Part shown: positions 20,982 through 56,114 of the stretch, piece after piece
Layout of the letters: the number at the start of each line of letters is the position of its first letter
Position numbering within the stretch: the first letter of the stretch is position 1
NCBI GenBank assembly: GCA_013178125.1
Contig: JABLXJ010000001.1
Coordinates: forward strand, 1-64,000
DNA length: 64,000 bases
Direction: 5' to 3'
Origin: Bacillota bacterium
GTDB lineage: Bacteria; Bacillota; SHA-98; Ch115; JABLXJ01
Notes under the pieces: generated by a model
Databases searched by the model: none
Seen by the model: only the letters and a program-made list of their open reading frames with translations
Told to the model about the DNA's origin: nothing
Made by a program: the position numbers and the translations under genes

Positions 20982-21081
20982 TGCTGCATCTTGCAGCATA
21001 TCTTTAAAAAGCATGCTGCACTACGCAGCATGTTCTGGCGGGATGTGTTGCAGCCTGCAGCATCAGGGGGTCCGATGCTGC
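20982..21081. repeat. Cluster of three GCAGCA/TGCTGC palindromes
   Basis: IR1: TGCTGCA (20982-20988) / TGCAGCA (20992-20998). IR2: CATGCTGC (21012-21019) / GCAGCATG (21025-21032). IR3: GCAGCATC (21057-21064) / GATGCTGC (21074-21081). All arms are perfect. The region has no gene. Confidence 0.8.
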
Positions 21082-50854: not shown

Positions 50855-50920
50855 ATCCAATGTTGATGAGTGATAATGATCTATTAGTGGTTAGCTTCCT
50901 GGTTTGTCGTAAATTCAACT

Positions 50921-50939
50921 CCCCGGGAACTTCCCGGGG
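50921..50939 (+). other. Hairpin in glyA leader
   Basis: CCCCGGG-AACTT-CCCGGGG, perfect 7-bp stem. The leader does not show the conserved core of known glycine, SAM or THF riboswitches that I could recognise. Confidence 0.5.
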
Positions 50940-51006
50940 TGCCCGGGCGGTGCCGGACCGTGTTCGTTGGTATCTTCTGTCGCTTAATCATAGAGGAGTG
51001 ATTCCA

Positions 51007-52251
51007 TTGTTAGAGGAAGTCTGGAAGGTCGATCCTGAGGTCGCCAAGGCAATTGAGGATGAAACAGGGCGCCAGCGTTCCAAGATCGAATTGATCGCAT
51101 CGGAAAATTTCGTGAGCAGAGCTGTTATGGAGGCTCAGGGGTCACCCCTGACAAATAAATATGCAGAGGGCTACCCGGGGCGGAGGTATTACGGGGGGTG
51201 CGAGTTTGTTGATGTTGTCGAGACCCTTGCGATCGAGCGGGCGAAGAAGCTGTTCGGGGCCGAGCACGCCAACGTGCAGCCGCATTCGGGAGCCCAGGCA
51301 AATACCGCTGTGTATTTTGCGGTCTTGAATGTCGGCGATACAGTTCTCGGTCTGAATCTTACACACGGGGGGCACCTGACGCACGGCCAGCACCTCAATA
51401 TTTCGGGGAGGTATTTCAGATTCATTCCATATGGCGTGTCCCGGGAGACCGAGACCATTGATTATGATGAGCTCCGCAACCTCGCGCAGGAACACAGGCC
51501 CAGAATGATCGTGGCTGGGGCGAGCGCCTACCCGAGGATCATCGACTTCGCCAGGATACGCGAGATTGCTGATGAAGTCGGCGCCTACGTCATGACTGAC
51601 ATGGCTCACATTGCGGGCCTTGTGGCCGCAGGGCTCCACCCGAGCCCCGTGCCTTACTCTGAATTTGTGACGACCACGACGCATAAAACATTAAGGGGCC
51701 CGCGCGGCGGGTTGATTCTCTGCCAGGAGCGCTTCGCCAGGGTGGTCGACCAGGCGGTCTTCCCGGGCATCCAGGGTGGCCCGCTCATGCACGTTATAGC
51801 GGCGAAGGCCGTCGCCCTGCGGGAGGCCATGACGCCGGAGTTTCGGGCCTACCAGGGCCAGGTAGTTAGAAACGCCAGGGCCCTTGCAGGCGAGTTGATG
51901 GCCCGGGGTTTCAGGATTATATCGGGCGGCACCGATAACCACTTGATGCTGGTGAGCCTGATCGAGAAGGGCTTGACCGGCAAGAGGGCCGAAAAGCTCC
52001 TGGATGATGTGGGTATAACTGTCAATAAAAATACCATTCCATTCGATCCGGAGAAGCCGTTTACCACGAGCGGCATAAGAATAGGGACGCCGGCGGTCAC
52101 AACCCGGGGAATGAAGGAGAGAGAGATGAGGGAGATAGCCAGCATAATCTCGTCGGTGCTTGATAACCCCGATAGCGCTGAGACGATGGGTGAAGCCAGG
52201 CAGAAGGTTCAGGCTCTGTGTGAGAGCTTCCCACTCTATAGTTCCTTATAG
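51007..52251 (+). CDS. glyA: Serine hydroxymethyltransferase
   Basis: 414 residues when started at TTG 51007, the normal length; AGAGGAGTGA lies 8 nt upstream. The frame is open for 49 more codons upstream, but these do not look like SHMT. PLP enzyme blocks: '[20 protein letters not shown]', '[15 protein letters not shown]', '[18 protein letters not shown]', '[19 protein letters not shown]' and '[15 protein letters not shown]' (Schiff-base Lys). It interconverts Ser and Gly with tetrahydrofolate. Confidence 0.96.
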
Positions 52252-52265: not shown

Positions 52266-52493
52266 TGCCAAGGAATTTGGCAGGCCCACCGCCGCTCTGC
52301 CAAGAGATTAGGCAGATTAGCCTATAAACTCGACAAAACTGCCAAAAATTCTGGCACCTCTACGTGTAACCTGCCAAGATTCTTGGCACTTTCACCTTAG
52401 ATCAGGGTAAACTGCCTAGAATATTGGCAGGGTTACTGAGTAGTTGCCAAGAATCTTGGCATCTCCACGCGCAAACCGCCAAGAAATTTGTCA
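52266..52493. repeat. Seven phased 17-bp palindromes (candidate operator array)
   Basis: Sites at 52266, 52298, 52340, 52372, 52413, 52445 and 52477, each 17 bp and close to TGCCAAGA-N-TCTTGGCA. Sites 52372 and 52445 are perfect palindromes with 8-bp arms; the others have one to four mismatches. Start-to-start distances are 32, 42, 32, 41, 32 and 32 bp, i.e. about 3 or 4 helical turns, so all sites face one side of the helix. A further half-site TTGGCA lies at 52518-52523. The array sits between glyA and the por operon. Confidence 0.85.
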
Positions 52494-52517
52494 CTATGCA
52501 TATTTTTAAATGCATGT

Positions 52518-52546
52518 TTGGCATATGTTTCGTGGTAGAATAGATA
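52518..52546 (+). promoter_or_regulatory. Candidate promoter of the por operon
   Basis: TTGGCA (52518-52523), 17-bp spacer, TAGATA (52541-52546). The -35 is the same hexamer as the half-site of the palindrome array. Confidence 0.45.
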
Positions 52547-52674
52547 TGGTTATGGTTCAACCTCGCGATCTCGCGACCGTGCTTGCGTTATCGGGCTCAG
52601 GGCTTACTGGTCAGGCTCTATTAACGCTCACGGTTTTTGTTATTCTCAGGACCCAATTTCGGTGAGGAGGGTTT

Positions 52675-53277
52675 GTGGGCATGGGCACAGGCATGGGCAT
52701 GGGAAAAGTTTTGGAAATACGCTGGCATGGGAGGGGCGGTCAGGGCGCCAAGACGGCCGCTCTTCTCCTCGGTGAGGCGGCATCTGCTGCCGGCAAGTAC
52801 ATCCAGGCCTTCCCTGAATACGGCCCCGAGAGGATGGGCGCCCCCGTCCTGGCCTTTAACCGGATCAGCGACGAGCCCATCACGGTCCACTGTCATGTCG
52901 CTTCCCCGGGGATAATTGTGGTGCTGGATCCCACCTTGATACGCACGGGGAGCGTTACAGCTGGGGCGCCGGAGGATGCGGTCTACGTCATAAACACCCC
53001 CCTGGACCCCTCCGAAATGCGAAAGAAGCTGGGGGTGCGCTCGGGGAAGGTATTCACGGTGGATGCGATGCAGATTTCCCTGGATTGCCTTGGCCGGGCT
53101 ATACCCAACACCCCGATGATCGGGGCCCTGATCCGTGCGACCGGGCTCATGAAGCTCGAGGACTTCGTCGCGGATACAAGGCGCAAGCTCGAGAAGAAGT
53201 TTGGATCAAAGCCCGGCGTCGTGGAGGGCAATATCAAAGCCATCGAGCGGGCCTACCAGGAGGTGAGGGGTGAGTGA
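52675..53277 (+). CDS. porG: 2-oxoacid:ferredoxin oxidoreductase, gamma subunit
   Basis: 200 residues. 'IRWHGRGGQGAKTAALLLGEAA' near the N-terminus and 'FPEYGPERMGAPVLAFNRIS' are the gamma-domain signature of pyruvate/2-oxoacid ferredoxin oxidoreductases. AGGAGG at 52665 serves GTG 52675 or ATG 52681. First of four overlapping or closely spaced genes G-D-A-B. Preceded by the palindrome array. Confidence 0.92.
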   Translation: MGMGTGMGMGKVLEIRWHGRGGQGAKTAALLLGEAASAAGKYIQAFPEYGPERMGAPVLAFNRISDEPITVHCHVASPGIIVVLDPTLIRTGSVTAGAPEDAVYVINTPLDPSEMRKKLGVRSGKVFTVDAMQISLDCLGRAIPNTPMIGALIRATGLMKLEDFVADTRRKLEKKFGSKPGVVEGNIKAIERAYQEVRGE

Positions 53278-53825
53278 ATCGGGCGAATAGGGGAAATGGA
53301 GTAAACAACCGGGTTGATGTGGATGATGAAGTGAATAAAGTTAACGAGGGAAACAATGGAAACGTAAAGGGTGGAAACGGAAATAATGGAAACAGATGGC
53401 ATGATGGAGTTAATATGGATGAAAAGGGCTGGAGGGATGTGCCCATAGCGGGCCTCATCATCGAGCCCGGGACGGCAAGGGGGTATAAGACCGGGGAATG
53501 GAGGACCCACCGCCCGGTCTGGGACCCCGAGAAGTGTATTAATTGCTTTTTATGCTGGATTTACTGCCCTGATTCGGCTATCCAGGTGAAGGATGGGAAA
53601 GTGGCCGGCATAGACCTGGAGCATTGCAAGGGGTGTGGCATATGCGCACACGAGTGCCCGTCTAAGGTCAGGGCGATCAACATGGTGCTGGAGAGCGAGG
53701 CTGAGGCCGAAGATGGAGGGAAAGGGAATGAGGAAACCGGCGGGGAGGCTAACCGGGGTGAAGCCGACAGCGATAAAGCCGATTGTGGTAAAGCCGGCTG
53801 CGAAAGGGGGAGCGTGAAGTGGTAG
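53274..53825 (+). CDS. porD: 2-oxoacid:ferredoxin oxidoreductase, delta (ferredoxin) subunit
   Basis: 183 residues. Two 4Fe-4S motifs: 'CINCFLCWIYCP' and 'CKGCGICAHECP'. It hands electrons to ferredoxin. The normal protein is about 100 residues; here there is an extra N-terminal tract of about 45 residues, mostly Asn, Gly, Asp and Val, and an acidic/Gly-rich tail after residue 142. GTG 53274 overlaps the porG stop (GTGA); ATG 53415 would give the normal length without the tract. Confidence 0.9.
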   Translation: MNRANRGNGVNNRVDVDDEVNKVNEGNNGNVKGGNGNNGNRWHDGVNMDEKGWRDVPIAGLIIEPGTARGYKTGEWRTHRPVWDPEKCINCFLCWIYCPDSAIQVKDGKVAGIDLEHCKGCGICAHECPSKVRAINMVLESEAEAEDGGKGNEETGGEANRGEADSDKADCGKAGCERGSVKW

Positions 53826-55138
53826 CAGAGCTAGCAGAGCGGGAATTGGCAGGGCGAGAAGCGGTGAAGTTCATTGCCATGACGGGCAATGAGGCTGTGG
53901 CCGAGGCCATGAGGCAGGTCAACCCCGACGTCGTGGCCGCTTACCCCATTACGCCCCAGACGGAAATCGTGCAGATATTCTCGACGTTCGTTGCTGATGG
54001 GCTCGTGAAGACCGAGTTTGTGACCGTCGAGAGCGAGCACAGCGCGATGAGCGCAACCATCGGCGCCGCGGCGGCGGGTGCGCGCGCGATGACGGCGACC
54101 TCGTCCCAGGGCTTTGCGCTGATGTGGGAGATGCTTTACATCGCGGCGGGCCTGAGGCTTCCCATAGTTATGCCCGTTGTAAACAGGGCTCTGAGCGCGC
54201 CCATCAATATTCACTGCGATCATAGCGATACGATGGGCGCCAGGGATTCCGGGTGGATCCAGATATTCTCCGAGAATGCGCAGGAGGCTTACGATAACGT
54301 GATCCAGGCTGTCAGAATCGCGGAGTCCAGGGATGTCTTGTTGCCCGCGATGGTGTGCATGGATGGCTTTATCGTGAGCCACGGCATGGAGAGCGTCAAG
54401 CTGCTCAAGGATGAAGAGGTCCGGGGGTTCATAGGAGGGTATGAACCGGCTTACTCGCTGCTGGACGTCGACCACCCGATAACCGTGGGAGCCCTGGACT
54501 TCGCTGACTGGTATTTCGAACACAAGCGGCAGGAGGCCGCGGCTGAGGTCCCCGTAGCTGAAGTGGTCAGGAGGGTCGGCGAGGAATATGGGAAGCTCTC
54601 GGGGCGGAGCTATGGGTTGTTTGAGGCCTACAGGCTCGACGATGCGGAGGTGGCAGTGGTGGCGCTCGGCTCGACCGCGGGGACCGCGAAGGCGGTAGTC
54701 GATGAGCTGCGGCGAGAGGGCGTCAGGGCGGGGGTGCTCAAAATCCGGCTCTACAGGCCTTTCCCCGGGGATGAAATCGTCCGGGTCCTTTCGGGCGTGA
54801 AGGCCATCGCGGTGCTCGACCGTTCTGATACCTTCTCCACCATGGGCGGGCCAGTGTTTATAGACATCAAGGCCTCCATGTATGCCCCCATATATGATGA
54901 CTCTGTATATGATGACTCTGTGCATGGCCCTGTGCGTGGTTCTACGCATGACCGTGACGCCCGCGATACTGGCGCGCGCGATACTACGCAGAGGCCGGTT
55001 ATAGTAAATTACATCTACGGGCTCGGCGGGAGGGATATTGACCTGGAGCAAATTCGCAAGGTTTATGAGAGGCTCCAGGCAATAGCGACCACCGGGGAGG
55101 CCGGCCAGTGTGTCAGCTACCTGGGGGTAAGGGAATAA
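53819..55138 (+). CDS. porA: 2-oxoacid:ferredoxin oxidoreductase, alpha subunit
   Basis: 439 residues. 'AYPITPQTEIVQIF', 'VESEHSAMSATIGAAAAGARAMTATSSQGFALM' and 'DSGWIQIFSENAQEAYDNVIQA' are conserved in PorA/VorB subunits. A low-complexity insert (about 360-395, 'YDDSVYDDSVHGPVRGSTHD'...) lies before the usual C-terminal 'YIYGLGGRD'. GTG 53819 overlaps porD. The gene order G-D-A-B is as in archaeal and thermophile pyruvate oxidoreductases; the 2-oxoacid is most likely pyruvate but 2-oxoisovalerate is possible. Confidence 0.9.
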   Translation: MVAELAERELAGREAVKFIAMTGNEAVAEAMRQVNPDVVAAYPITPQTEIVQIFSTFVADGLVKTEFVTVESEHSAMSATIGAAAAGARAMTATSSQGFALMWEMLYIAAGLRLPIVMPVVNRALSAPINIHCDHSDTMGARDSGWIQIFSENAQEAYDNVIQAVRIAESRDVLLPAMVCMDGFIVSHGMESVKLLKDEEVRGFIGGYEPAYSLLDVDHPITVGALDFADWYFEHKRQEAAAEVPVAEVVRRVGEEYGKLSGRSYGLFEAYRLDDAEVAVVALGSTAGTAKAVVDELRREGVRAGVLKIRLYRPFPGDEIVRVLSGVKAIAVLDRSDTFSTMGGPVFIDIKASMYAPIYDDSVYDDSVHGPVRGSTHDRDARDTGARDTTQRPVIVNYIYGLGGRDIDLEQIRKVYERLQAIATTGEAGQCVSYLGVRE

Positions 55139-55163
55139 AGGAGACAGGGGGTGTTATTATACC

Positions 55164-56114
55164 ATGGCCAATTTGAGGGAGTTATCTCGCAAGGATGAGC
55201 TGCTCACCGGCGGGCACAGGGCCTGTGCTGGGTGCGGGGCGCCGGTGGCCGTGAGGCAGGTTTTAAAGGCTGTGGACACGCCCGTGGTAGTAGGATGCGC
55301 CACAGGCTGCCTGGAGGTGACCACGACCATCTACCCGTATTCGGCCTGGAATGTCCCGTTTATCCATAGCGCCTTCGAGAATGTTGCTGCGACGGTGAGC
55401 GGCATTGAGGCGGCTTACAGGTCTCTGAAGCGTCAGGGCAGGATCCAGAGGGATATTCAGTTTGTAGCCTTTGGGGGAGACGGCGGCACCTATGATATTG
55501 GTTTTCAGGCGTTATCTGGAGCTATGGAGCGCGGCCACGATATGGTATATATTTGTTATGACAATCAAGCATATATGAACACAGGGATCCAGCGGTCTAG
55601 CGCCACGCCCAGGGGGGCGGCGACCACTACGAGCCCTGCCGGGAGGGTGGCTACGGGAGGCAAGAGTCAGTATCGCAAGGATCTTACAGCTGTGATGGCG
55701 GCCCACGATATTCCATATGTGGCTCAGACCACGATCAGCCACTGGAACGATCTCATAACCAAGGTTAGGAAGGCTTTTGCTGTAGAGGGGCCGGCCTTTG
55801 TGAATATCCTGGCCCCGTGCCGGCTCGGATGGCAGATCGATTCCGCTGATAGCATCGAGATATGCAGGAAGGCGGTGGATACCTGCTTCTGGCCGCTCTA
55901 CGAGGTAGAAAACGGGGTGTGGAAGATAACCGTGAAGCCAAAGGAGAAAAAGCCCATTACGGAGTGGCTGAGGCCCCAGGGTAGGTTCCGCCACCTATTC
56001 AAGCCCGGAAATGAGAAGATCATAGAGGAGATCCAGGCCGACGTGGACCGCAGGTGGGAGATGCTTCAAAAGAGGTGTGAGGTGGGCGGGGCGGGTATGA
56101 TGCCTCGTGAATAG
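55164..56114 (+). CDS. porB: 2-oxoacid:ferredoxin oxidoreductase, beta (TPP) subunit
   Basis: 316 residues. 'HRACAGCGAPVAVRQVLKAV' and 'VGCATGCLEV' hold Cys residues that bind the Fe-S cluster; 'AFGGDGGTYDIGFQALSGAMERGHDM' and 'CYDNQAYMNTGIQRSSATP' form the TPP/Mg site (GDG...N). Last gene of the operon. AAGGAGA precedes ATG 55164. Confidence 0.92.
   Translation: MANLRELSRKDELLTGGHRACAGCGAPVAVRQVLKAVDTPVVVGCATGCLEVTTTIYPYSAWNVPFIHSAFENVAATVSGIEAAYRSLKRQGRIQRDIQFVAFGGDGGTYDIGFQALSGAMERGHDMVYICYDNQAYMNTGIQRSSATPRGAATTTSPAGRVATGGKSQYRKDLTAVMAAHDIPYVAQTTISHWNDLITKVRKAFAVEGPAFVNILAPCRLGWQIDSADSIEICRKAVDTCFWPLYEVENGVWKITVKPKEKKPITEWLRPQGRFRHLFKPGNEKIIEEIQADVDRRWEMLQKRCEVGGAGMMPRE

Follow-up and report, generated by a model that had tools for sequence, protein, structure and literature searches.

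Helically phased palindromes between glyA and the por operon as a putative truncated copy of a dispersed MITE-like repeat

Between glyA and the 2-oxoacid:ferredoxin oxidoreductase (por) operon, seven 17-bp palindromes form an array that we consider, with a probability of about 0.7, to be a truncated and diverged member of a dispersed MITE-like repeat family, with an interior made of a helically phased row of palindromes (putative dimer-binding sites) and with no more than an incidental relation to por. The repeat family is found in this genus and has its 17-bp palindromes three or four helical turns apart. Its copies are dispersed, the end-bearing ones are mobile, the palindrome arms are constrained and, in two palindrome families of this genome, the pitch is close to an integral number of turns. 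The features discussed are collected in Table 1; the window is the whole stretch of DNA analysed (64,000 nucleotides).

Table 1. Arrays, palindromic sites and neighbouring features, with positions in the window unless a contig or locus is named
Feature	Position	Strand	Remark
Seven-palindrome array	52266..52493	.	copy of the dispersed repeat, probably truncated, without recognisable terminal inverted repeats
Site 1	52266..52282	.	TGCCAAGGAATTTGGCA; same as second site of contig-16 copy
Site 2	52298..52314	.	TGCCAAGAGATTAGGCA
Site 3	52340..52356	.	TGCCAAAAATTCTGGCA
Site 4	52372..52388	.	TGCCAAGATTCTTGGCA; perfect palindrome
Site 5	52413..52429	.	TGCCTAGAATATTGGCA
Site 6	52445..52461	.	TGCCAAGAATCTTGGCA; perfect palindrome
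Site 7	52477..52493	.	CGCCAAGAAATTTGTCA; degenerate, in register
glyA (serine hydroxymethyltransferase)	50860..52251	+	stop codon 15 bp ahead of array
Hairpin, then T-run	52570..52654	+	upstream of porG; context, outside the repeat
2-oxoacid:ferredoxin oxidoreductase operon (gamma, delta, alpha, beta)	52675..56114	+	bystander in the preferred reading
Second phased array, TGCTGC-N5-GCAGCA	20982..21062	.	sites at 20982, 21014, 21046; pitch 32 bp
Type-A copy, 457 bp	contig 8 at 11.5 kb		11 palindromes
Type-A copy, 128 bp	contig 7 at 36.8 kb		one palindrome
Fermentithermobacillaceae array	L070 2662-3307		
Fermentithermobacillaceae array	L097 6399-6876		
Fermentithermobacillaceae array	L095 3455-3804		

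The por array lies between the glyA stop codon and the por promoter region, and its sites, as an earlier note on this DNA had described them, follow one another at start-to-start distances of 32, 42, 32, 41, 32 and 32 bp. Six of the seven fit TGCCAAGANTCTTGGCA with at most three mismatches (shuffled windows gave a mean of 0.39 such sites and never six); the seventh, CGCCAAGAAATTTGTCA, has four mismatches, yet stands in register. All share the core TGCCAA-N5-TTGGCA, in which the inner five bases are variable.

This palindrome is widespread in the same genome, which we surveyed by pattern searches and fetched stretches. The 17-mer, with at most three mismatches, has 111 matches in 3.48 Mb (6 for a reversed-pattern control), and a pattern of two neighbouring sites has 41 (0 in the control), corresponding to about 15 arrays on 11 contigs, with roughly 100 sites. 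BLAST with one 164-bp array retrieved near-full-length relatives at nine loci, the query counted; apart from the query itself, their identity to it is 79–90%, with the por copy as the most diverged (79%). Since the spacers are also homologous between loci, the arrays represent copies of a single mosaic element, frequently with a larger repeating unit of about 106 bp (32+32+42). In a de novo scan of the whole of contig 1 (435 kb), pairs at helical spacing were restricted to the por array and to an array of another palindrome, TGCTGC, described below. All arrays of this genome are intergenic: six sit 11–25 bp from a stop codon (15 bp in the case of glyA) and the remaining ones mostly between tandem or converging genes, with no constant orientation towards the genes. 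The neighbours (serine hydroxymethyltransferase and por, CobD, an ABC permease, an acyl-CoA-synthetase-like protein, a DEAD-box helicase, a LacI regulator, SelD/SelA, a release factor, an IclR regulator and a sugar-isomerase-like protein) have no shared function, and no regulon could be recognised among these loci. Another dispersed repeat, of about 170–200 bp and 82–91% identical, was observed in this genome and in that of a sister species of the same genus, G001 (L149 3397-3578, L150 2255-2453, L155 4113-4309, L035 5195-5393 and L037 9649-9846).

Consecutive sites in this genome are separated by 32 (51 cases), 33 (3), 36 (1), 40 (1), 41 (12) or 42 bp (18), giving a phase vector of length 0.91 at 10.5 bp, although these counts are not independent, because the arrays are copies of one element and the conserved spacing is partly inherited by copying. 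Three further cases of phased palindromes, described below, add weight to the pitch: another family in this genome, a third in G001 and one in a different Bacillota family. The helical phasing proposed in the earlier note is thus borne out, as the spacings are near-integral numbers of turns. NtrC binds 17-bp palindromes whose arms are 6 bp long and which, at glnA, are about 32 bp apart; NorR uses three sites. Such enhancer clusters, in which groups of three dimer sites with three-turn spacing load a hexameric AAA+ activator, match the present geometry, and five strong sigma-54 activator genes were identified in this genome. Nevertheless, an NtrC/NorR-type function is improbable: the arrays are mostly located at 3' ends or between converging genes and not before promoters, no regulon is formed, and the exact sigma-54 promoter consensus has no match in the window.

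Many copies, mostly in G001, sit in MITE-like elements bounded by inverted CTRAGGTTTTGACATAA (type A), and inverted GGTTTTGACATAA ends were also found around arrays. Two copies with type-A ends are present in the genome studied here (Table 1). Exact target duplications flank the ends of three copies (TCATTGTTA, 9 bp; GACTTGAATT, 10 bp, which lies within a repetitive stretch; and GGACATAAAATC, 12 bp) and are absent or decayed at other copies. Most copies of our genome bear different ends (type B), and in at least one G001 copy an A end is joined to a B end. MITE criteria (ends, duplications, dispersal) therefore fit part of the family. In the por copy neither a recognisable terminal repeat nor a target duplication is visible; it has the appearance of a type-B relative that was truncated, since its first site matches the second site of the contig-16 copy exactly and its last one is similar to the site that neighbours B ends elsewhere. 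We infer its mobility from its membership of the family and from the relatives in which the array is lacking. No autonomous element with the same ends was found in the two draft genomes (this one and G001), where the matches to the end sequences are short elements or single ends, and no transposon open reading frames were recognised by eye beside the lone ends. A plasmid collection queried with a full copy, terminal inverted repeats included, gave no match, and the array-pair pattern retrieved from viral contigs three stretches, at spacings of 36, 36 and 40, that we judged unrelated.

Constraint is concentrated in the palindrome arms. Pairwise comparison of nine aligned copies gives a divergence of 6.0% for the 6-bp arms, as against 26% for the 5-bp centre and 21% for the spacers, and changes private to one copy affect 9 of 534 arm positions versus 39 of 664 spacer positions (p=0.0002); for the por copy alone the numbers are 2/60 and 15/74 (Fisher p=0.0035). 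Arm changes are one-sided in 84 cases and paired in 6 (3.8 expected under independence), covariation is unfavourable to the consensus fold (term of +1.66) and double changes occur in 2 of 49 pairs. One-sided changes and unfavourable covariation imply that it is the half-site sequence that matters and not the pairing of the arms, which look like protein half-sites rather than a hairpin, as would be expected for the binding of a dimer; on this point the earlier note's proposal of protein-binding sites gains support, its por function aside. The constraint could reflect selection in place or act only on the lineages that are actively copying.

The same data bear on a REP/BIME-type origin, in which the palindromes would be mobilised as single-strand hairpins by a REP-associated tyrosine transposase (RAYT). 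The arrays are indeed extragenic mosaics of palindromes, often just past stop codons, and they fold (z-score -6.5), a result that palindromes give trivially. In REPs, complementary mutations in the palindrome arms were described (PMC2817692), and here the arm changes are non-compensatory. There is also no GTAG-type tag, the helical pitch is strict and Y1_Tnp (PF01797) had no match in our genome, although control genomes were matched; this origin is quite unlikely. The contrast with REP-type repeats drawn in the earlier note stands as regards geometry, which is stricter than in ordinary REP/BIME, but not as regards dispersal, since the array does belong to a dispersed repeat family. Structural RNAs or cruciforms, that is, transcribed hairpins that stabilise or terminate mRNA at gene 3' ends, would agree with the arrays after stop codons and with the same fold z-score, but are highly improbable given the covariation result, arms that vary independently, the inconstant orientation towards genes and the lack of a relevant Rfam family (the only match of the array, mir-255, scored far below the gathering score and was taken as chance). 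A CRISPR array was rejected, since only the 6-bp arms are conserved, the centres vary and spacers are common to several loci.

The comparison with relatives separates the array from the por operon. The adjacency of glyA and porG is kept in G001 and in two genomes of the same order (G002 and G003), yet without any such site between the two genes; upstream of porG, G001 has an 85-bp hairpin-like segment, 84% identical to positions 52570-52654 of the window, and the array is absent. Two other array loci of our genome, one behind an oxaloacetate-decarboxylase-like gene and one between selD and selA, have no array in G001 and, conversely, an array in the selD neighbourhood of G001 is missing at the corresponding place in our genome. 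These array-free orthologous sites indicate gain or loss of arrays. The earlier note had proposed that a cooperative or polymerising regulator, bound to the seven sites, controls the por operon. The location between glyA and porG, the arm constraint present in the por copy and the near-integral-turn spacing are compatible with such an operator, but we regard it as very unlikely, given some 15 arrays at functionally unrelated loci and three relatives that keep the gene order, one of them also the downstream hairpin, with no array upstream of porG. Control of por thus does not survive the refutation test that the earlier note had itself set. The half-site TTGGCA (52518-52523), which had been proposed as the -35 box of porG, was likewise rejected as a sigma-70 element: its gap of 12 bp to the -10-like TAGAAT (52536-52541) is too short, and a promoter scan identified no + strand promoter at these sequences. 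The hairpin upstream of porG has a large loop before its T-run and is a possible glyA terminator or por attenuator.

For a mobile repeat with a phased interior, we propose that a dimer of one DNA-binding protein would occupy each palindrome, contacting both TGCCAA half-sites from the same side of the helix, and that neighbouring dimers would cooperate along the DNA, giving a filament or a wrapped complex. This complex may serve the element, either in transposition or through a silencing that makes it tolerated at gene 3' ends, or it may contribute to local chromosome packing. The por operon would be a bystander and any effect of the array on it incidental.

The window holds a second phased array, overlooked in the earlier note and built on another palindrome, TGCTGC-N5-GCAGCA (Table 1). 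With at most three mismatches allowed, the genome contains 22 pairs of this palindrome spaced exactly 32 bp apart, and the control 0. Its arrays, at about eight loci, have a 32-bp pitch and triads of 32, 32, 30; no such arrays were found in G001. Apart from the window, TGCTGC arrays were noticed in L024 8012-8280, L030 5639-5719, L210 and L216, and three of the approximately eight loci are within roughly 0.5–2 kb of a TGCCAA array. Directly before one TGCTGC array (L033 5472-5510; contig 8 near 150.5 kb) there is a single repeat unit that differs little from the CRISPR repeat on contig 119 of G001, either a CRISPR relic or an array end. In G001 a third palindrome, TGGTAAG-N3-CTTACCA, recurs at 31–33 and 42 bp (L150 1-260, L161 1-150, L154 3232-3355), and contigs break at these sites, which suggests many copies.

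Outside the genus, metagenome-assembled genomes (MAGs) of another Bacillota family, the Fermentithermobacillaceae, carry a related palindrome, TGCCAAC-N3-GTTGGCA, in arrays of 9–16 sites at a pitch of 41–42 bp between converging genes. The query used was biased to TGCC...GGCA and to 30–44-bp spacing, so that the shared core is partly a matter of selection; the length, rigidity and synteny of the arrays are not. Two of them (L070 and L097) are one syntenic locus in two species, with flanks 79–81% identical; within each array, the arms are 81–92% identical and the spacers 37–49%, with a spacer length of 25 in nearly all cases. Many TGCCAAA/TTTGGCA-like palindromes, at a 21-bp pitch (two helical turns), were also seen in a Methylococcaceae MAG (L071, L079, L080, L089), and pairs similar to TGCCAA-N5-TTGGCA, 32 bp apart, lie just upstream of promoter-like sequences in Parachlamydia and alphaproteobacterial contigs (L086 3539-3587 and L094 4264-4312). 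In the literature collection that was searched, no matching description of phased palindrome arrays came up. We tentatively hypothesize that rows of odd-length palindromes at integral helical pitch constitute an undescribed class of bacterial DNA elements, acting as loading tracks for filament-forming proteins; the class would span several lineages, which differ in their palindromes, and would have turned into a mobile repeat in this genus. By the same conjecture, Fermentithermobacillaceae might keep one syntenic locus of this class, with a rigid 42-bp pitch and largely randomised spacers.

Dispersed bacterial repeats are usually taken for hairpins or junk. Here, within a mobile, duplicating element, conservation falls on two half-sites and on the helical pitch, as is characteristic of protein docking. 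If a filament-forming protein were found, small mobile repeats would become linked to chromosome organisation, and nature would provide a collection of phased docking arrays for study. The case also cautions that a palindrome array upstream of a gene need not be the operator of that gene.

Among known systems, NtrC/NorR enhancers resemble the arrays in geometry only (17-bp palindromes, 6-bp arms, 5-bp centre, three-turn spacing, groups of three); the present arrays differ in being dispersed, in lying at 3' ends or between converging genes and in having no sigma-54 promoter in the window. Neisserial intergenic mosaic elements are mosaics of small palindromes that alternate with repeated spacers; the alternation is shared by our family, in which, unlike those elements, the sites stand a set number of helical turns apart and arrays are copied as a whole. 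With REP/BIME (PMC2817692) the family has in common extragenic palindromes, mosaic arrays, a location often just after genes and repeated spacer types, and it differs in the near-integral-turn pitch, in arms that behave as half-sites and in the lack of a GTAG-type tag, RAYT and complementary arm changes. Like MITEs (PMC10969869), its copies are short (128–457 bp here), non-coding, multicopy and intergenic, with inverted ends and target duplications, truncated copies losing their ends; unlike MITEs, their interior is a row of as many as 11 phased palindromes in which the arms are constrained, most copies of this genome have other ends and no parent insertion sequence was found. We therefore call the family a small dispersed mobile repeat, a variant with a phased putative docking array.
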